From contig DATFYX010000041.1 in NCBI GenBank assembly GCA_035314825.1, forward strand, positions 1 to 46,170: a stretch of DNA of 46,170 nucleotides. Reading direction: 5' to 3'. Source of the DNA: Candidatus Eremiobacteraceae bacterium. Lineage in GTDB: Bacteria; Vulcanimicrobiota; Vulcanimicrobiia; Eremiobacterales; Eremiobacteraceae. Both the position numbers and the translations under genes were made by a program. How positions within the stretch are numbered: the stretch's first letter is position 1; every line of letters begins with the position of its first letter. Under the pieces are notes generated by a model. The model had not been told where the DNA came from. It saw only the letters and a program-made list of their open reading frames with translations, and searched no databases. Of the stretch, positions 1,359-42,111 are shown piece after piece.

Positions 1359-1725
1359 TGCCGGCGAGTTTTTCCGTCAGCTTCTTATAGACCGCGTCGT
1401 GCAAGTCTCGGCGTTCGACGATCACTGCGGTGGGCGCCGACTGCCGGCACTTGTCGATGTCCTTCGCGGGCACGTCAGTCAGGAACACCGGCACATTGCG
1501 CGAGTTGAAGCCGTCTTTGATATATCGCGCCGCTTCGCGGCCATGCGAGGGGATGCGCCCGAGCGAGATGACGATGACATCGGGCCGCTCGCGGTTGAGG
1601 ACATCGAAGAACGTCGGCCAGCGCGGCTCGGCTTCGACCAGTGACGCGCCCAATGCGGTGAGCGCCTCGCGGCGCGCAGCGCAATCCGGGTCGCTATCGA
1701 ACTGGAGCAATAGTATCTTGGCCAC
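1351..1725 (-). CDS. Degenerate receiver-domain (response-regulator-like) protein
   Basis: About 124 residues with the beta-alpha pattern of a CheY-like receiver: ILLLQFDSDPD at the N-terminus, then RPDVIVISLG, then VPVFLTDV. The strand that normally ends in the phospho-acceptor Asp reads VIVISLG, with Ser or Leu there, and the conserved Lys near the C-terminus is not evident (VIVERRD). It is therefore probably a phosphorylation-independent receiver or an output fragment. I chose the GTG at 1725 because the domain starts there. A longer frame reaches ATG at 1818 and would translate the palindromic element at 1726-1750 as an N-terminal extension. No good ribosome-binding site is visible for either start. 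The target is unknown. Confidence 0.65.
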   Translation of the reverse strand: MAKILLLQFDSDPDCAARREALTALGASLVEAEPRWPTFFDVLNRERPDVIVISLGRIPSHGREAARYIKDGFNSRNVPVFLTDVPAKDIDKCRQSAPTAVIVERRDLHDAVYKKLTEKLAGTT

Positions 1726-1750
1726 GGTCGGATAAATTCGACCGCTCCAT
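1726..1750 (-). repeat. Family 1 REP-like palindrome, copy A
   Basis: The core is GGTCGGAT-AA-ATTCGACC followed by GCTCCAT. The arms pair except for one G:T position. Read on the minus strand it begins ATGGAGC, giving a GGAG head. It ends exactly where the GTG start of the receiver gene begins. Confidence 0.9.
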
Positions 1751-4219: not shown

Positions 4220-4401
4220 AGATCCTCGATGTGACGCCGCAGCCGACGGCCGAAGAGCTCGCGGCGATCGAGGCAGCGTTGAAAATCGTCGAGGAGAATG
4301 CGCGGACGAATACATTCGACGGTCGAATAAATTCGACCGCTCCATCGCGCACGGCGTGGTTGGAGGCGGCGCGGCGCGAGGCGCTCGATGACGGCGTTTA
4401 A
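4216..4401 (+). CDS. Acyl-CoA carboxylase epsilon-like small subunit carrying a REP-like insertion
   Basis: A 61-residue protein starting with TTG in the TTGA overlap with the beta subunit and overlapping the alpha-subunit start by 14 bases. [14 protein letters not shown] near the N-terminus and [12 protein letters not shown] near the C-terminus resemble the small epsilon subunit that stabilises actinobacterial acyl-CoA carboxylases. Its position between the beta and alpha genes supports this. Residues 36-43 (GRINSTAP) are encoded by palindromic element copy B, which sits in the linker between the two conserved parts without breaking the frame. The family assignment is from pattern and context and is less certain than for its neighbours. 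Confidence 0.7.
4321..4345 (-). repeat. Family 1 REP-like palindrome, copy B (in frame inside a gene)
   Basis: The core is GGTCGAAT-AA-ATTCGACC with perfect 8-bp arms, followed by GCTCCAT (GGAG head on the minus strand). It lies wholly inside the epsilon-like subunit gene and is read as GRINSTAP. Confidence 0.95.
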
Positions 4402-10655: not shown

Positions 10656-10890
10656 CGGGATGAACGCGATGCGTATCGAGCTAGGCGGCGTCGCCGCGGC
10701 CGCGGGTGCGACGAGCGCGCCTGCGATCGCGGCGCAAGAGATCGCAGTCGTGAGAAGCGCCCGGGCGGACCACGCCGATAGCCGAGGCGTTGGCGACGGC
10801 GAGAGCCGGAGCCACCGAGCGAAGGAGTCAAAATATCCCGAAGATCCGAGCGTCCTCGGCGCAGGCGTGGTCCGCCCGGCGCGAGCCGGC

Positions 10891-10915
10891 GGTCGAATGA
10901 ATTCGACCGCTCCAT
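10891..10915 (-). repeat. Family 1 REP-like palindrome, copy C
   Basis: The core is GGTCGAAT-GA-ATTCGACC with perfect arms, followed by GCTCCAT. It is the first of two tandem copies (39 bases start to start) between livF and the DUF4127 gene, in the same orientation as copy D. Confidence 0.95.
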
Positions 10916-10929
10916 ATCGCCGTGTGGGC

Positions 10930-10954
10930 GGTCGAATGAATTCGACCGCTACAC
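10930..10954 (-). repeat. Family 1 REP-like palindrome, copy D (supplies the livF stop codon)
   Basis: The core is GGTCGAAT-GA-ATTCGACC followed by GCTACAC, giving a GTAG head on the minus strand. The TAG in that head (10949-10951) is the stop codon of the LivF reading frame. Arms extend to 10 bp. Confidence 0.95.
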
Positions 10955-11647
10955 CGAGAGGTAGCGTTGCATCAGCTCCTGATCCGCGCGCAGCTGCGCC
11001 GATGTATCGGAGGCTACGATCTGCCCGTCGGAGAGGACGTGGGCGCGATCGGCCACCGCGAGCGCAACGCGGGCGTTCTGCTCGACCAGCAGCATCGTCA
11101 GGCCCTCAGTCTTCATCTCCATGATGGCTTTTTGGATCGCCTGCGCGATGACCGGCGCGAGGCCCTCGAGCGGCTCGTCGAGCAAGATGATCGCCGGGTT
11201 CTGGATCAGCGCCCGCGCGATCGTCAACATCTGCTGCTCGCCGCCTGACAGCGACTTCCCTTCGTTCGTCTTGCGCTCTTCAAGCCGCGGAAAGAACTCG
11301 AACACCTTCTTGTAATCCCACGGGCCTTTGCGGCCTGCAAGCGTGGCAAGCTTGAGGTTCTCCAGCACCGTCAAGTTCGGGAAGATGCGCCGTTCCTCGG
11401 GCACGTACGCCACGCCGCGGCGCGAGATGGTGTACGGCTTGAGGCCGGTGATGTTCTGCCCGTCGAGGGTGACGGTTCCACTGCGTGGCGGCGTGACGCC
11501 GGCAATCGTCTTGAGCGTGGTGCTGCGGCCCGATCCGTTGCGTCCGATCAGAGCGACGACCTCACCGCGATCGACGTCGATCGAGACGTCTTGCAAGATG
11601 TGGCTCTTGCCGTAGTACGTGTTGAGCCCGCGCGCTTCGAGGAACAT
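10949..11647 (-). CDS. livF: Branched-chain amino-acid-type ABC transporter ATP-binding protein LivF
   Basis: 232 residues, normal for LivF. The signature SLSGGEQQMLTIARAL, Walker B IILLDEPLEGLAP and the H-loop region (MLLVEQNARVAL) are intact. The P-loop reads GRNGSGRSTT: the Walker A lysine is replaced by Arg (codon CGC), so ATP binding may depend on Arg here or on LivG. It would energise uptake with LivG, LivH and LivM. The start overlaps the livG stop by one base (TGATG on the minus strand). The stop codon comes from palindromic element D. The actual substrate (branched-chain amino acid, amide, urea or other) cannot be told. Confidence 0.92.
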   Translation of the reverse strand: MFLEARGLNTYYGKSHILQDVSIDVDRGEVVALIGRNGSGRSTTLKTIAGVTPPRSGTVTLDGQNITGLKPYTISRRGVAYVPEERRIFPNLTVLENLKLATLAGRKGPWDYKKVFEFFPRLEERKTNEGKSLSGGEQQMLTIARALIQNPAIILLDEPLEGLAPVIAQAIQKAIMEMKTEGLTMLLVEQNARVALAVADRAHVLSDGQIVASDTSAQLRADQELMQRYLSV

Positions 11648-16562: not shown

Positions 16563-16592
16563 GTAGCGGTCGAATGAATTCGACCGCTACAC
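16563..16592. repeat. Family 1 REP-like palindrome, copy E (fully symmetric)
   Basis: The core GGTCGAAT-GA-ATTCGACC lies inside perfect 13-bp arms (16563-16575 and 16578-16590). Both ends carry a GTAG/CTAC head, so its orientation cannot be assigned. Confidence 0.97.
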
Positions 16593-19668: not shown

Positions 19669-20622
19669 ATGCGCATCGTCAGCCTCTTGCCAAGCGCCAC
19701 CGAGATCCTCTACGCGATCGGCGCAGGCGGCCATGTCGTGGGCGTCACCCACGAGTGCGATTTTCCCGCTGCGGCGCGCGCCAAACCGCGCCTCACGCGC
19801 AGCGCGCTGCCGCCGGGCGGCGGCGCGGGCGACATCGATCGCCACGTGCGGGCGTCGCTGCACGCCGGTTCCTCGATCTATGCGCTTGACGCCGCATTGC
19901 TCGAACGGCTGCGCCCGGATCTTATCCTCACGCAAGAGCTCTGTCCGGTGTGCGCGGTGTCGTACGATACCGTCTGCGCGGCGACGCGGCGCTTGAGCGG
20001 CGACCCGCGACTGGTCTCGCTCGAACCGTCGAGCCTGGATGACGTGTATGCCACCATCGGGTCGATCGGCGAGCTCACCGGACATGTGGGCGAGTCCGAG
20101 GCTGTGGTCGAGGGGCTGCGGACCCGCGAGCGGCACTTGCGCGCTCTTACGTCAGGTCTTGCCAGGCCGCCAACGCTGGTGTTGGAGTGGACGGATCCGC
20201 CGATGAGCGGCGGCCACTGGACGCCGGGACTGGTCGAGCTCGCCGGCGGCACTCCCGTGCTTGCGAATCCCGGCGCGGATTCTGCGCGCTTGGAGTGGGC
20301 CGCGATCGCGGCAGCTGACCCCGACGTCATCATCATCGCGTCGTGCGGCTTCGATCTGACCGCCGCCGCGGCAGCGGCGCGCGACCTGAGCGCCACTTCC
20401 GTGTGGGACGAGCTGCGCGCCGTGCGCTCGGGCCGGGTCGCAGTCGTGGACGGCAACGCATACGTCAATCGCCCTGGTCCGCGTCTGTTAGATTCCGCAG
20501 AGATATTCGCCGCCGCGATCCATCCTTCGCTTGCGGCCGAGCTGCCCGCGTACCTTGGCGGCTGGACGTGGCTTGCGGACGCTGCGCTATTCGCCCGCGC
20601 TCAAGAGCGCGGGACTACATAG
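19669..20622 (+). CDS. Cobalamin-type ABC transporter substrate-binding protein (BtuF-like)
   Basis: 317 residues of the class III (BtuF/FhuD) binding fold. MRIVSLLPSATEILYAIGAG, VGVTHECDFP, LILTQELCPVCAVSY and ADPDVIIIASCGFDL are family signatures. It begins at the fold without a signal peptide, as do many annotated cobalamin-binding relatives, so its location is uncertain. The upstream gene, divergent across about 170 bases, is the TonB receptor. No BtuC or BtuD partner is in the window. The C-terminal residues ARAQERGTT and part of the stop are encoded by family 2 element copy 1. The stop overlaps the convergent murQ gene by eight bases. Confidence 0.8.
   Translation: MRIVSLLPSATEILYAIGAGGHVVGVTHECDFPAAARAKPRLTRSALPPGGGAGDIDRHVRASLHAGSSIYALDAALLERLRPDLILTQELCPVCAVSYDTVCAATRRLSGDPRLVSLEPSSLDDVYATIGSIGELTGHVGESEAVVEGLRTRERHLRALTSGLARPPTLVLEWTDPPMSGGHWTPGLVELAGGTPVLANPGADSARLEWAAIAAADPDVIIIASCGFDLTAAAAAARDLSATSVWDELRAVRSGRVAVVDGNAYVNRPGPRLLDSAEIFAAAIHPSLAAELPAYLGGWTWLADAALFARAQERGTT
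20592..20620 (-). repeat. Family 2 REP-like palindrome, copy 1
   Basis: CCCGCGCTC-AA-GAGCGCGGG with perfect 9-bp arms, followed by ACTACAT; on the minus strand it has a GTAG head. It encodes the last residues of the cobalamin-type binding protein, and its final T begins the TAG stop. Copy 2 at 42083-42111 is identical apart from one base over 29. Confidence 0.9.
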
Positions 20623-21514
20623 CTTCGAGGGCGCGTCGCAGGCTGCCCCCGCTGCGCTCCAACAGCGCCGTCGCTTCGTCGCGCGCGACGCCGCGGCGCA
20701 GCATCAGCACCGCCGGCTTGACCCTGTAGTCGCACGCCGTGAGCGCCGCGCGCGCTTCTTCTTCTTCTTTGCCGGACAGCAGCGTCGTGATGCGCAGTGC
20801 CCGGGCGCGCAGTTTCGCGTTGCTCGCGGCGACGTCTACCATCAGATTGCCGTGCACGCGGCCGAGCTTGACCATCACGGCAGTGCTGATGGCCGCCAGC
20901 GCCATCTTCTGGGCCGATGCGGCCTTCATGCGCGTGGAGCCTGCCACCACTTCGGCGCCGGTCAGCAGCGCGATCGGGATCTGCACGCTGCGCGCCAGCG
21001 GTCCGTTCGCATCGTTGGTTATGCCGACGGTCAACGCGCGCACCGCTGCCGCCGCGCGCATCGCGCCGAGCACGTAGGGCGCCTGCCCGCTCGCCGAAAG
21101 CCCGACGACCGCATCCCGCTCCACGATGCGCGCAGCCGCGACCTCGTCGGCGCCTGCTTGAGCGTCGTCCTCGGCGCCTTCGACCGCTCTCACGAGCGCA
21201 GAGGGACCGCCGGCGATGTGCGCTACCACCAGATCCGGCGCCACGGAGAACGTCGGCGGCATTTCGGCGGCGTCGCCAAGCGCGATGCGGCCGCTCGTGC
21301 CGGCGCCGAAGTAGTGCAGCCGGCCGCCCCGTGCCAGGCGCTGCGCGATCGCGTCTACGGCGGCGCCGATGACGTCGAGCTCCCGTTCGACCGCCCAGGC
21401 GGCGCGCCGATCCTCGTCATTGATGCGGTGCAACAGTTCGTGGGTGTCGAGGACGTCCAGATCCGCGGTCGATGGATTGATCTCTTCAGTCAAAGGAAGC
21501 GGTGTGTCATCCAT
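20615..21514 (-). CDS. murQ: N-acetylmuramic acid 6-phosphate etherase
   Basis: 299 residues, the standard length. Family motifs are LTEEINPSTADLD at the N-terminus, YFGAGTSGRIALGDAAEMPPTF, VVGLSASGQAPYVLGAM and VVAGSTRMKAASAQKMAL. The SIS fold and the catalytic Glu region (DAAEMPPTF) are intact. It cleaves the D-lactyl ether of MurNAc-6-phosphate to GlcNAc-6-phosphate in the cytoplasm. It is the last gene of the peptidoglycan-recycling unit and overlaps the upstream kinase stop by eight bases. Confidence 0.95.
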   Translation of the reverse strand: MDDTPLPLTEEINPSTADLDVLDTHELLHRINDEDRRAAWAVERELDVIGAAVDAIAQRLARGGRLHYFGAGTSGRIALGDAAEMPPTFSVAPDLVVAHIAGGPSALVRAVEGAEDDAQAGADEVAAARIVERDAVVGLSASGQAPYVLGAMRAAAAVRALTVGITNDANGPLARSVQIPIALLTGAEVVAGSTRMKAASAQKMALAAISTAVMVKLGRVHGNLMVDVAASNAKLRARALRITTLLSGKEEEEARAALTACDYRVKPAVLMLRRGVARDEATALLERSGGSLRRALEAM

Positions 21515-22427
21515 GCCGGAGCGCCTCGAGCGCCAGCGCGGCGGCTCCCAACGCCGCCTCGACCTGCAGACGGGTGACGACGCACGGATGAGCGCCCAGT
21601 GTCCGAGTCACCACGTGCGCGAGCTGCGGCACGGCTTCGAAGGCGCCGCCGGCCAGCGTGACCGGCAGCGGCCGATCCCCATCGCGAACGGCGCCGGCGA
21701 CGCGGACCGCGAGCGCGCCCAGGAGCGCCCCTTGCCGTTCGACGATCTGCGCGGCGATCGGATCGCCTTGCGCGTGCGCCGGCCCCACCAACATCGCCAG
21801 ACGCGCGATCCGCGCCACCGGCGCGCGCTCGCGCTCGAACTGCGCGATGAGATCCGTCACGCTTGCCGCGCCGAGCTCGCGGAGGAGCGCAGCGCTGAGC
21901 AGACCGCTTGGTTCGATCCCGTCCAAGACGCGCGCGCCGTGACGAAGCACCGCGCGACCTATCTCGTATGCGCTGCCGTCGTCGCCGATCTGCGGACCGT
22001 AGCCGCCCGCACGCACGGGCGTGCCGTCGGCGCGCTCACCGTATGCGAGCGAACCGGTCCCGGCGATGACGGCCATCGCGGGCCGGGCGGCGGTCGCGGC
22101 GCGCAGCGCGATGCGCCCGTCGTGCACGACGGTCAGCACGGTCCGTGCCGGCACGAGCGGGCGCAGCAGTTCTTCAAGCCGGCCGGCCCGCTGCGCGTCG
22201 CCCGCACCGGCGGCGCCGACGCAGAGCGCGCGCGCACCGCCGCGGGCCAGCAACGGCCGCAAGACCTGCGCGAAATTGCGGACGATGACGGACTCCTCGG
22301 CGCTTGAGACGTTCGCGCCGCCGGCCTTCGCCCACGCGATCGGCAAACCGTCGGCGGCGGCGAGGACTCCCGTCATCGCGCTCGCGCCCGCGTCCACGCC
22401 GATGACCGTGTCTAGGTGGTCGACCAT
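21507..22427 (-). CDS. BadF/BadG-type sugar kinase, probable N-acetylglucosamine kinase
   Basis: 306 residues from ATG 22427; the longer frame upstream is arginine-rich shadow of anmK. The ASKHA fold shows as VIGVDAGASAMTGVLA (phosphate 1), VVHDGRIAL, then MAVIAGTGSLAYG (phosphate 2), GGYGPQIGDDGSAYEIG, and VTLAGGAFEAV near the adenosine site. The GDDGSAY-EIGR block is typical of GlcNAc kinases of this group. Lying between murQ and anmK, it probably phosphorylates the GlcNAc released by NagZ. It overlaps the anmK stop by 16 bases. MurNAc or glucosamine kinase activity is the main alternative. Confidence 0.82.
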   Translation of the reverse strand: MVDHLDTVIGVDAGASAMTGVLAAADGLPIAWAKAGGANVSSAEESVIVRNFAQVLRPLLARGGARALCVGAAGAGDAQRAGRLEELLRPLVPARTVLTVVHDGRIALRAATAARPAMAVIAGTGSLAYGERADGTPVRAGGYGPQIGDDGSAYEIGRAVLRHGARVLDGIEPSGLLSAALLRELGAASVTDLIAQFERERAPVARIARLAMLVGPAHAQGDPIAAQIVERQGALLGALAVRVAGAVRDGDRPLPVTLAGGAFEAVPQLAHVVTRTLGAHPCVVTRLQVEAALGAAALALEALRHG

Positions 22428-23593
22428 AGCGCCCGCATGAGTTTGGGGAAATTCTTGCCCGGGGCGATGACGCCCATGACGACGCCGCTGCGCGCGCCGG
22501 TCGCGGACGGCAGATTGTTCGGTCGTCCGTACAGCGCTTCGTGCGCGAGCACCGCGAACACCATCGCCTCCTTGGCGTCGACCGGCATGCCGAACGCGTC
22601 GGAGCGCTCGATCACCGCGCTTACCGAGCGGCGGTCGAGCTCGTCCTCGAACATCTTCATGAGCGCGCGGTTGTGCACGCCGCCGCCGGAGACGATCACG
22701 CGAGCGCAGTCGCGCGGCACCGCGGCCGCGATCGTGCGCGCGGTCAGGGCGGTCACGCTGGCGATGAGATTGGGGCCGCTGACGCCCAGGTTCGCAGCCC
22801 GCTGCAGCACGTCGCCCGCGTAGGCTTCGCCGAACTCTTCGCGTCCGGTCGACTTCGGGCTTGGCCGGCGGAACCACGGCTCTTCCATCAATTCGTCGAC
22901 CAGCGCCTCGGAGACGCGGCCGCTTTGCGCGAGCGCGCCGCCCCGGTCGTAACGCTGCACGCCGTGCGATTCGAATCGCACGCACGCGTCGATCAGCATA
23001 TTGCCCGGACCGGTGTCGAACGCGCGCACCTGCTCGGGGCCACGCCCCGCCGGCAGCCAGGTGACATTGGCGATGCCGCCGATGTTGAGCGCCAGACGGC
23101 TTTCGGTGTCGCTGCGCAGCAAGAGGTAGTCGACGAACGGGACCAACGGCGCGCCTTCGCCGCCGGCGGCGACGTCGGCCACGCGGAAATCGCCCACGGT
23201 GGTCACGCCGGTCGCCTGCGCGATGATGGCGGGCGAGCCGATCTGCAGGGTGGCGCGGGTCTCAGGACGTCCTGACGTCATATGATACATCGTCTGGCCG
23301 TGCGAACCGATCGCATCCACGCTTGCCAGGTCGATGCTGGCGCGTGCGCACAGGCGCGTGGCGGCTTCGGCGAATGCGGTCCCGACGCGCGCGTTGAGCG
23401 CGCACACGTCGCGCGTGCTGCCCTGCTTGGGTGGGAGCGCGGCTTCCAAAGCAGCGCGAAGTTCGGCGTCGTACGGCGAGGTCGCATGCCCGAGCAATGC
23501 GATGTCGAGGCGGTCGCCGTGGCGCTCGAGGTCGATCGCCGCTGCGTCGATGCCGTCCAGCGAGGTGCCTGACATCAGACCGATGACGCGCAT
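22412..23593 (-). CDS. anmK: Anhydro-N-acetylmuramic acid kinase
   Basis: 393 residues; full-length AnmK. Diagnostic motifs: VIGLMSGTSLDGIDAA at the N-terminus, IGSHGQTMYH, VGDFRVADVAAGGEGAPLVP, LNIGGIANVT, FDTGPGNMLIDA and VSGGGVHNRALM. It phosphorylates and hydrates 1,6-anhydro-MurNAc to MurNAc-6-phosphate, the substrate of MurQ encoded downstream. ATG 23593 follows directly after the TAG of the serine hydrolase gene, so the two are probably translated in sequence. Confidence 0.95.
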   Translation of the reverse strand: MRVIGLMSGTSLDGIDAAAIDLERHGDRLDIALLGHATSPYDAELRAALEAALPPKQGSTRDVCALNARVGTAFAEAATRLCARASIDLASVDAIGSHGQTMYHMTSGRPETRATLQIGSPAIIAQATGVTTVGDFRVADVAAGGEGAPLVPFVDYLLLRSDTESRLALNIGGIANVTWLPAGRGPEQVRAFDTGPGNMLIDACVRFESHGVQRYDRGGALAQSGRVSEALVDELMEEPWFRRPSPKSTGREEFGEAYAGDVLQRAANLGVSGPNLIASVTALTARTIAAAVPRDCARVIVSGGGVHNRALMKMFEDELDRRSVSAVIERSDAFGMPVDAKEAMVFAVLAHEALYGRPNNLPSATGARSGVVMGVIAPGKNFPKLMRALWSTT

Positions 23594-24715
23594 CTACGGG
23601 TGACGGTCGAGTAAACTCGACCGCTCCATGGGTCTTAGAGGTTCGAGCTCGGCGATCACCGCGTCGTGCACGGCGGCGCGCAGGTCCGCGATCGGGCCGG
23701 GCTCGCGAGTCACGTACACCCGATTGGTCAACAGCACGACGGTGAGCGCGCGTTTGGGATCCACGATCAGCGAGGTCCCTGTATACCCGGTATGTCCGTA
23801 GGTGTTGGGCGAAAGCGATCGGCCCCACGGCCGTGCGTTTGAGGACTTGAGCGCCCAGGCCAGGCCGCGCCGCTCGTCGTGCGAGCGCGCGTGCTCTTTG
23901 ACGGCGCTCTGCGACGTCGCTCGCGACAGCACGCGCCGCCCCGCATACTGCCCCGCTTGCCGATACAGCTCGCTGAGACGGCCGACGTCCGCCGCCGCGC
24001 CGAACAGGCCCGCGTGCCCGGCCACGCCGCCCATCGACCAGCACGTCTCATCGTGGACCTCGCCCCGCAAGAGTCTGCCGCGCCATTCGTCGCGTTCGGT
24101 GACGACGGTGCGATCGAGGATCGCGCCTTGCGGAACGTAGCCGCAGCTGGCGATCGCGAGCGGGTCGAACACCAGGCTTTGCAGCGCGATCGGCAGCGGC
24201 ACGCCCGATAATCGCGCCACCGCCTCGCCTGCGAGGATGAACCCGCAATCGCTGTACACGACTCGCTCGCCGGGCGCATTGGTCAGCGGCGTCGCGCATA
24301 CGCGTTCGATGACGCGCGCTGCACTGCTCTCCGCGCGCGCGTTCACGCTCGGCGGCAAACCGGACGTGTGGGTGAGCAGATGCCTGAACGTGACCATCGC
24401 GCGTCGCGCGTCGCGGCCGGCGAACTCGGGGAACGTCGCCACGATCGGATCGTCGAGCGCGAACCGGCGCTGGTCGAGCAGCACGAGCAGCGCCGTCCCG
24501 ACGGCGATCTTGGTCAGCGACGCAAGATCGAAGATCGCATCGTTGCCCGCCACCGCGCCCCCGGGCGCGACCTCGCCGAACGCGGCTTCGCACACGATGT
24601 CGCCGGAGAGCCGCACGTGCAGCACCGCACAGGAGCACACGCGTCCGATCGAGCTCTCGACGAGCGCGCGCGCAGCGGGCAGGGAGCGGTCCAATGTACC
24701 TGCGGGTCGGGTCAT
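23594..24715 (-). CDS. Serine hydrolase of the class C beta-lactamase family, in peptidoglycan-recycling operon
   Basis: 373 residues. The nucleophile motif is SLTK (in FDLASLTKIAVG), the second motif YSD (in VVYSDCGF) and the third region HTGYTG near the C-terminus; FRHLLTHTSGLP is the usual helper motif. No clear signal peptide is seen. Bacillus recycling operons also pair NagZ and MurQ with a beta-lactamase-family protein, so it may act on peptides or muropeptides; this is inference. The last 11 residues (MERSSLLDRHP) come from palindromic element copy F and extend past the normal domain end. The start overlaps the nagZ stop (ATGA). Confidence 0.85.
   Translation of the reverse strand: MTRPAGTLDRSLPAARALVESSIGRVCSCAVLHVRLSGDIVCEAAFGEVAPGGAVAGNDAIFDLASLTKIAVGTALLVLLDQRRFALDDPIVATFPEFAGRDARRAMVTFRHLLTHTSGLPPSVNARAESSAARVIERVCATPLTNAPGERVVYSDCGFILAGEAVARLSGVPLPIALQSLVFDPLAIASCGYVPQGAILDRTVVTERDEWRGRLLRGEVHDETCWSMGGVAGHAGLFGAAADVGRLSELYRQAGQYAGRRVLSRATSQSAVKEHARSHDERRGLAWALKSSNARPWGRSLSPNTYGHTGYTGTSLIVDPKRALTVVLLTNRVYVTREPGPIADLRAAVHDAVIAELEPLRPMERSSLLDRHP
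23605..23629 (-). repeat. Family 1 REP-like palindrome, copy F (compensated variant)
   Basis: The core is GGTCGAGT-AA-ACTCGACC, followed by GCTCCAT. Relative to the consensus both arms have changed together (A to G on the left, T to C on the right), so pairing stays perfect. It encodes the C-terminal tail of the serine hydrolase. Confidence 0.93.
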
Positions 24716-40125: not shown

Positions 40126-40539
40126 ATGACTGACGAAGAGACCACTGCGGCAGCGGCGGACGGTCGAATGAATTCGACCGCTCCAACGCCTGCCGTGAAT
40201 TCGGCCGCTCCGGCGACTGAGACCGCTGAATACCCCGTCACCGAAGAGGTCGTGCGCGAGGCGCTGCGCAGCGTCGTCGATCCCGAGATCGGCCTCGACA
40301 TGGTGAGCCTCGGATTGCTCTACGGCGTCGCGGTCGACGGATCGAAGGTGAAAGTCACGATGACGCTCACCACGCCCGCCTGCCCAGTGGGTCCGATGTT
40401 CGTCAATGCGGTGCACCAAGCGGTGATGGCGATCCCAGGCGTCTCCGAATGCGACGTCGATCTGACGTTCTCGCCGCCGTGGGATCCGCGCACCATGGCC
40501 AGCGACGAAGTCAAACTCCAAATGGGGTTCTATTATTGA
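40126..40539 (+). CDS. MIP18/DUF59-family metal-sulfur cluster assembly protein with REP-like insertion in N-terminus
   Basis: 137 residues. The conserved domain occupies about 40-137: EALRSVVDPEIGLDMVSLGL, TLTTPACPVGP with the family Cys, and LTFSPPWDPRTM, ending in LQMGFYY. Such proteins (PaaD, SufT and relatives) help assemble iron-sulfur or metal centres. The N-terminal extension of about 38 residues is low-complexity, and within it residues 13-20 (GRMNSTAP) come from element copy G and residues 25-29 (NSAAP) from a degenerate half copy. The extension is probably disordered and dispensable. The ABC ATPase start lies 11 bases after the stop. Confidence 0.88.
   Translation: MTDEETTAAAADGRMNSTAPTPAVNSAAPATETAEYPVTEEVVREALRSVVDPEIGLDMVSLGLLYGVAVDGSKVKVTMTLTTPACPVGPMFVNAVHQAVMAIPGVSECDVDLTFSPPWDPRTMASDEVKLQMGFYY
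40162..40185 (-). repeat. Family 1 REP-like palindrome, copy G (in frame inside a gene)
   Basis: The core is GGTCGAAT-GA-ATTCGACC with perfect arms, followed by GCTCCA. It lies inside the MIP18-family gene and is read as GRMNSTA-P. Confidence 0.95.
40197..40211 (-). repeat. Degenerate right half of a family 1 element
   Basis: GAATTCGGCCGCTCC matches the right half of the element at 14 of 15 bases. It lies 12 bases after copy G in the same orientation and is read as NSAAP, echoing the NSTAP of copy G. Confidence 0.6.
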
Positions 40540-40543
40540 GTTC

Positions 40544-40568
40544 GGTCGAATGAATTCGACCGCTCCAT
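40544..40568 (-). repeat. Family 1 REP-like palindrome, copy H (contains a start codon)
   Basis: The core is GGTCGAAT-GA-ATTCGACC with perfect arms, followed by GCTCCAT. The ATG at 40550-40552 at its centre is the only ordinary start codon in frame with the ABC ATPase. Confidence 0.95.
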
Positions 40569-42078: not shown

Positions 42079-42082
42079 GCGC

Positions 42083-42111
42083 GCCCGCGCTCAAGAGCGC
42101 GCGACTACATC
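42083..42111 (-). repeat. Family 2 REP-like palindrome, copy 2
   Basis: CGCGCTC-AA-GAGCGCG with 7-bp perfect arms, then GACTACAT (GTAG head on the minus strand). It differs from copy 1 at one base in 29. It fills most of the 47-base gap between the convergent permease and thioesterase genes. Confidence 0.9.

Follow-up and report, generated by a model that had tools for sequence, protein, structure and literature searches.

The closest described counterparts of the repeat analysed here are the GTAG-tagged REPs, which in many cases provide stop codons and can sit within genes (PMC3733652; their anatomy is also treated in PMC2817692). The likeness covers a 24-nt tagged palindrome with the tag abutting the stem, some 150 dispersed and mostly extragenic copies, stop codons provided by tag or loop, tandem or paired copies, and complementary arm changes between subfamilies. 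However, published heads are GTAG or GT[A/G]G, whereas the main tag here is GGAG with GTAG in the minority, and the host belongs to the phylum Ca. Eremiobacterota and has an assembly in which no RAYT (REP-associated tyrosine transposase, HUH/Y1 class) was found. Group 3 REPtrons, which combine perfect-palindrome REPs with a TnpA-REP (e.g. Stenotrophomonas Sm; PMC8266576), share with our host the bulge-free palindrome directly preceded by a tetranucleotide, and share with its family relatives RAYTs flanked by inverted copies; unlike them, our host has no detectable tnpA-REP. REPs inside genes (PMC3733652) also offer parallels, namely in-frame read-through that adds residues and a location within or next to DNA-repair genes (mutS here), but the copy considered below, copy F, sits at the extreme C-terminus of its gene and so appends a tail instead of breaking up a domain. 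Our literature search found no paper mentioning both REPs and Eremiobacterota, and a search for orphan GGAG-tagged REPs returned only unrelated papers. The present case extends GTAG/GGAG REPs and RAYTs to this candidate phylum, and provides both a natural example of REPs amplified on a large scale, seemingly recently, where the assembly shows no recognisable RAYT and a clear instance in which a REP encodes the end of a conserved enzyme.

The window, i.e. the whole stretch of 46,170 nucleotides that was analysed, is contig C41 of a Ca. Eremiobacterota MAG (G000; 2.55 Mb, 89 contigs, 97% complete). Copy F lies at the junction of two cell-wall-recycling genes, a serine hydrolase gene and anmK (Table 1). 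On the + strand its palindrome reads CGGTCGAGTAAACTCGACCG (23604-23623), with 9-bp arms that pair perfectly (GGTCGAGT/ACTCGACC included), and is followed directly by CTCC, so that 23604-23627 is CGGTCGAGTAAACTCGACCG-CTCC; on the gene strand the order is GGAG and then the palindrome, and the sequence through to the anmK start is ATGGAGCGGTCGAGTTTACTCGACCGTCACCCGTAG-ATG. The 36-bp interval singled out in the preliminary description does contain the repeat, but it also takes in bases that are not part of it: what actually repeats is the 4-nt tag together with the 20-nt palindrome (23604-23627), in most cases with T or AT ahead of the tag. The same description held that copy F departs from the consensus in both arms with pairing intact, and this is what we see, the arms being GGTCGAGT/ACTCGACC against a window consensus of GGTCGAAT/ATTCGACC. 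Its further claim, that the palindrome replaces or lengthens the hydrolase C-terminus by 11 residues up to a stop abutting anmK, is borne out by the end of the ORF (...PLRPMERSSLLDRHP*, with TAG at 23594-23596 against the anmK ATG at 23593), and by the tails of relatives discussed below. The REP-encoded tail falls outside the PF00144 domain, which ends at residue 346 of 373. Copy F is an ordinary REP insertion, an event of a known kind, through which the upstream hydrolase acquired a short new tail.

Table 1. Positions of copy F, its two neighbouring genes and the other intact REP copies in the window
Feature	Position	Strand	Remarks
Copy F REP element	23604..23627	-	tag GGAG (23624-23627), then palindrome CGGTCGAGTTTACTCGACCG (23604-23623); pair 8/13 is G-C, the commoner form A-T
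Hydrolase C-terminal end	23594..23629	-	last 11 residues MERSSLLDRHP, mostly REP-encoded, and TAG stop
Serine hydrolase	23594..24715	-	PF00144 beta-lactamase family, 1.6e-48, residues 27-346 of 373
anmK, anhydro-N-acetylmuramic acid kinase	22412..23593	-	PF03702, NF007148
REP copy	1725..1748	-	GGAG tag; one one-sided mismatch
REP copy (4320-4343) with fused second palindrome	4303..4343	-	GGAG tag; second palindrome (4303-4322) untagged
REP copy	10890..10913	-	GGAG tag; next same-orientation copy 39 bp away; junction without REP in G001
REP copy	10929..10952	-	GTAG tag, its TAG at the stop of an ABC-transporter gene (10949-11647); no REP in G001
REP copy (from 16567)	16563..16590	.	GTAG on both sides; site empty in G001
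REP copy	40161..40184	-	in frame in the N-terminus of a PF01883 Fe-S assembly protein (40126-40539, +)
REP copy	40543..40566	-	3 nt past the PF01883 gene stop; at the same place in G001 a diverged tagged palindrome, GCAG-CAGCCGA...TCGGCTG

Besides copy F, the window holds seven intact copies, whose arms are mostly GGTCGAAT/ATTCGACC. Across the host genome, matches to CGGTCGANTNNANTCGACCG (exact outer arms) number 148, as do matches when GKAG is required as the tag and six inner bases are left free; the reversed control gave 0 for each, so the palindrome is not a product of chance. We found 91 non-overlapping copies (0-5 mismatches, where the reversed-sequence background begins at 6) from 423 kb, or 17% of the genome, in stretches picked where copies had been seen and hence no basis for a density. 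The tag is GGAG in 53 and GTAG in 26 of these, a T precedes it in 83/91, and the loop is 2 nt long, mostly TT or TC, giving the consensus 5'-(T)G[G/T]AG-CGGTCGA(A/G)T-TY-A(T/C)TCGACCG-3'. Although 94% of the DNA is coding according to a crude codon-usage gene caller, only 12 of the 91 copies lie well inside an ORF; about a dozen times the stop codon of a neighbouring ORF is supplied by the TAG of the tag or by a TAA/TGA in the loop. What emerges is a short, high-copy, dispersed and mostly extragenic palindrome with a conserved end tetranucleotide, as in GTAG-type REPs, the tetranucleotide being G[G/T]AG and its majority form a variant of the published tag. We are highly confident that the palindrome is a REP element, by which we mean a tagged DNA hairpin that is non-autonomous and most likely owes its spread to a RAYT.

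Could such hairpins instead be intrinsic terminators or attenuators between genes? They are short, they sit at gene ends, and their median distance is 13 nt to gene 3' ends as against 47 nt to 5' ends. However, copies occur in both orientations relative to genes (33 vs 18), no T-run follows the copy F hairpin in either direction (the gene strand continues with TCACCCGTAGATG), and copy F is part of the hydrolase ORF and immediately precedes anmK, which is read from the same strand and would be shut off by a terminator at this place; we regard this explanation as extremely unlikely.

Several further palindromes were seen alongside the main family. Fused double palindromes with a 17-bp period and an untagged second unit occur in the window (4303-4343) and elsewhere in the host genome (C11:58271, C11:72175, C77:4951), and may have arisen as a side product of the way in which the elements are copied. 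A second, rarer GTAG-tagged family, GTAG-T-CCCGCGCTCTTGAGCGCGGG, is present in the window at 20592-20620 and 42082-42110, with about 5 copies in the stretches examined; one of them sits between the convergent genes 19669-20622 and 20615-21514. A third tagged type, GTAGTAGCGCGTT...AACGCGC, has about 5 copies in the 423 kb (L106:17571, L107:2020, L108:12942, L119:2175).

For comparison we used the nearest same-genus genome, G001, which is collinear with the window. Twenty-four host copies have both flanks in the examined DNA of that genome, and orthologous sites that are occupied in one species prove empty in the other for 19 of them, as is expected of a mobile element; the other 5 copies, at 4 sites, are shared. 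The in-frame copy in the PF01883 protein is missing from the G001 orthologue. The N-terminus of the host protein reads MTDEETTAAAADGRMNSTAPTPAV... (window 40126-40220), and a partial second copy, GTGAATTCGGCCGCTCC, follows the in-frame REP. At the end of mutS, by contrast, both species carry a REP (G001 C100, L121:3713-3736; host C34:39912-39957): the mutS stop in G001 is the TAG of the REP loop, whilst the host shows an outer pair changed from G-C to C-G in its first palindrome and has gained a second copy, tagged GTAG. Matches to the tagged pattern number 148 in the host, 5 in G001, 0 in G002, 1-2 per genome in genus g4 and 0 in the other 112 genomes of the class that were searched. With 148 copies set against 5 in G001 and 0-2 in each of the 115 others searched, the family was therefore amplified in the host lineage.

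These counts also bear on the idea that the palindrome is a protein-binding site, for a repressor, a nucleoid protein or a gyrase-type factor, spread by selection and not by transposition. Its perfect dyad symmetry would suit such a role, and REPs elsewhere are reported to bind host proteins (PMC2817692). But a one-sided G[G/T]AG tag and a species-specific amplification are not expected of a regulon, and copies are also found in tandem, fused and inside ORFs, which leaves this reading scarcely credible.

How, then, did copy F come by its paired change? The complete 24-mer, GGAG-CGGTCGAGTTTACTCGACCG, stands at 18 places in the host genome among the matches listed, and 5 more have it with GTAG. 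It is thus a REP subfamily copied as a unit, and the paired change is not a local repair; most likely copy F inherited its difference from the source element. The preliminary description had proposed that the hairpin is either maintained or copied as a unit, and that covariation between the arms of all genomic copies would tell. Covariation is strong at pair 8/13, which across the listed tagged copies of the genome is A-T in 106, G-C in 30, C-G in 3 and one-sided in 7 (Fisher 3e-26, a value that counts copies and not independent events). At the remaining stem pairs of the 91 copies, however, changes are mostly one-sided (22 vs 4 compensated), an excess as expected of copies that decay after insertion with no sign of being repaired. 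Pairing is thus preserved in the elements that amplify and not locus by locus: copying as a unit stands, whereas maintenance applies to the amplifying lineages only. The sister RAYT loci repeat this pattern on a larger scale, since nearly every RAYT has well-paired palindromes of its own. At one old site, C2:53200, host and G001 share an identical, fully paired copy with a change at pair 4/17 (CGGCCG).

Paired changes could also arise if intrastrand or quasi-palindrome template correction restored a decaying hairpin, with no subfamily copying. The mutS end offers a candidate, since the untagged host copy there is CCGTCGAATAAATTCGACGG where G001 has CGGTCGAATAGATTCGACCG, the two differing by the G-C to C-G swap; yet such correction leaves the 18 identical copies with the copy F sequence unexplained. 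At most it would account for rare single cases, and as an explanation for copy F we find it unlikely. The broader lesson is that a paired arm change in any single copy needs to be compared with the rest of its repeat family before local selection on a hairpin is invoked.

Turning to the junction in relatives, the hydrolase tail past the last aligned domain column (Glu358 here) is 1-7 residues long in nine REP-free relatives, 9 in G001 and 15 in the host. The comparison of C-termini that had been suggested at the outset therefore goes the way of an inserted tail, REP-free tails being shorter (1-7 residues, n=9, vs 15). The tails of these nine, which are more distant relatives than G001, are unrelated in sequence, and in most of them the stop overlaps or adjoins the anmK start. 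The REP has therefore either lengthened a variable tail or taken its place. At the G001 junction, one of the 4 shared sites, there is a degenerate REP, GGAG-CGGTCGACTCGATTCGACCG, unpaired at 8/13, and the hydrolase ends DLERSTRFDRSG*; a scan of the relatives' contigs revealed distant hydrolases but no other same-genus hydrolase/anmK junction. Because G001 has only about ten REP relics, an ancestral insertion common to both species is likely here. The host copy, on the other hand, looks like a fresh member of the amplified subfamily; the older copy may have been replaced or converted, or a second one may have inserted near it.

The shared position invites a further reading, in which selection acts locally on the junction hairpin as an RNA element, for mRNA stability or for translational coupling of hydrolase and anmK, and the arms compensate in place. 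GGAG and a hairpin do stand just upstream of the anmK start, and a GGAG-tagged palindrome is also present there in G001, the distance to the ATG being 9-10 nt in both species; taken by itself the G001 junction REP would also fit a conserved local role, which, like GGAG as the commonest tag and the negative RAYT searches described below, speaks against reading the palindrome as a RAYT-spread REP. Against local selection, 17 further copies in the host genome (among the matches listed) have exactly the sequence of copy F, so that its paired change needs no local cause; the G001 copy is mismatched (C-T) at positions 8/13 and its hairpin is the weaker one (-7.1 vs -9.0 kcal/mol), and nine other relatives do without any REP at the junction. 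We consider local selection decidedly improbable. A narrower possibility is co-option, in which the GGAG tag would act as a Shine-Dalgarno sequence, placed some 10 nt from the anmK start by folding of the hairpin, and the element would keep translation of hydrolase and AnmK in ratio. The spacing from GGAG-hairpin to ATG is 10 nt in the host and 9 nt in G001, while the upstream side differs by ~15 nt; we think co-option very unlikely.

The REP reading leaves the question of the enzyme. RAYTs are present in 10/11 other-genus genomes of the family. All four of those tested against NCBIfam score above the NF047646 cut-off of 80 bits, and a direct NF047646 search gave matches in 6 of the 7 other-genus family genomes included; scores range over 82.8-109.7 bits. 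These RAYTs keep the HUH motif and the conserved Tyr (motifs seen in profile A1) and are flanked by inverted tagged palindromes, so that sister genera have REPtrons. In genus g4 the inverted flanks are GTAG-CGGTCGAGCTTTAGCTCGACCG and GGAG-CGGTCGAGATTCATCTCGACCG, one base pair longer than the host element, with the same outer arms and tag. By contrast, no RAYT was found in G000, G001 or G002 with PF01797, the family-specific profile A1 (up to E = 10 in G000) or NF047646; the host REPs therefore have no detectable RAYT gene in their own assembly, at 97% completeness and in 89 contigs, and by analogy with the RAYTs of relatives we infer how they were amplified. The host family is seemingly a recent amplification, yet an orphaned one. 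It is possible that the driving RAYT was lost, or that it is absent through a gap at a repeat-flanked locus of a fragmented assembly. In published models, REPs remain and decay once their RAYT is lost (PMC3686654).

We would picture the events as follows. A RAYT would have recognised tag and hairpin in single-stranded DNA and copied the unit into new sites; the subfamily with G-C at position 8 would have been amplified beside the A-T family, and copy F would have taken its paired change from a source element of that kind. An insertion at the junction in the common ancestor of G000 and G001 may later have been replaced or converted in G000, or there may have been two separate insertions. Either way, the hairpin would have come to lie within the last codons of the hydrolase, where an 11-residue tail has no expected catalytic role, and translation of anmK would stay coupled; we infer that the tail is neutral. 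The RAYT behind the amplification would then have been lost, or be missing from the assembly. Elsewhere in the family, the RAYT genes of G009 (L076, L087) and G013 (L079) are embedded in arrays of tagged REPs at regular intervals, and every RAYT has a palindrome of its own.
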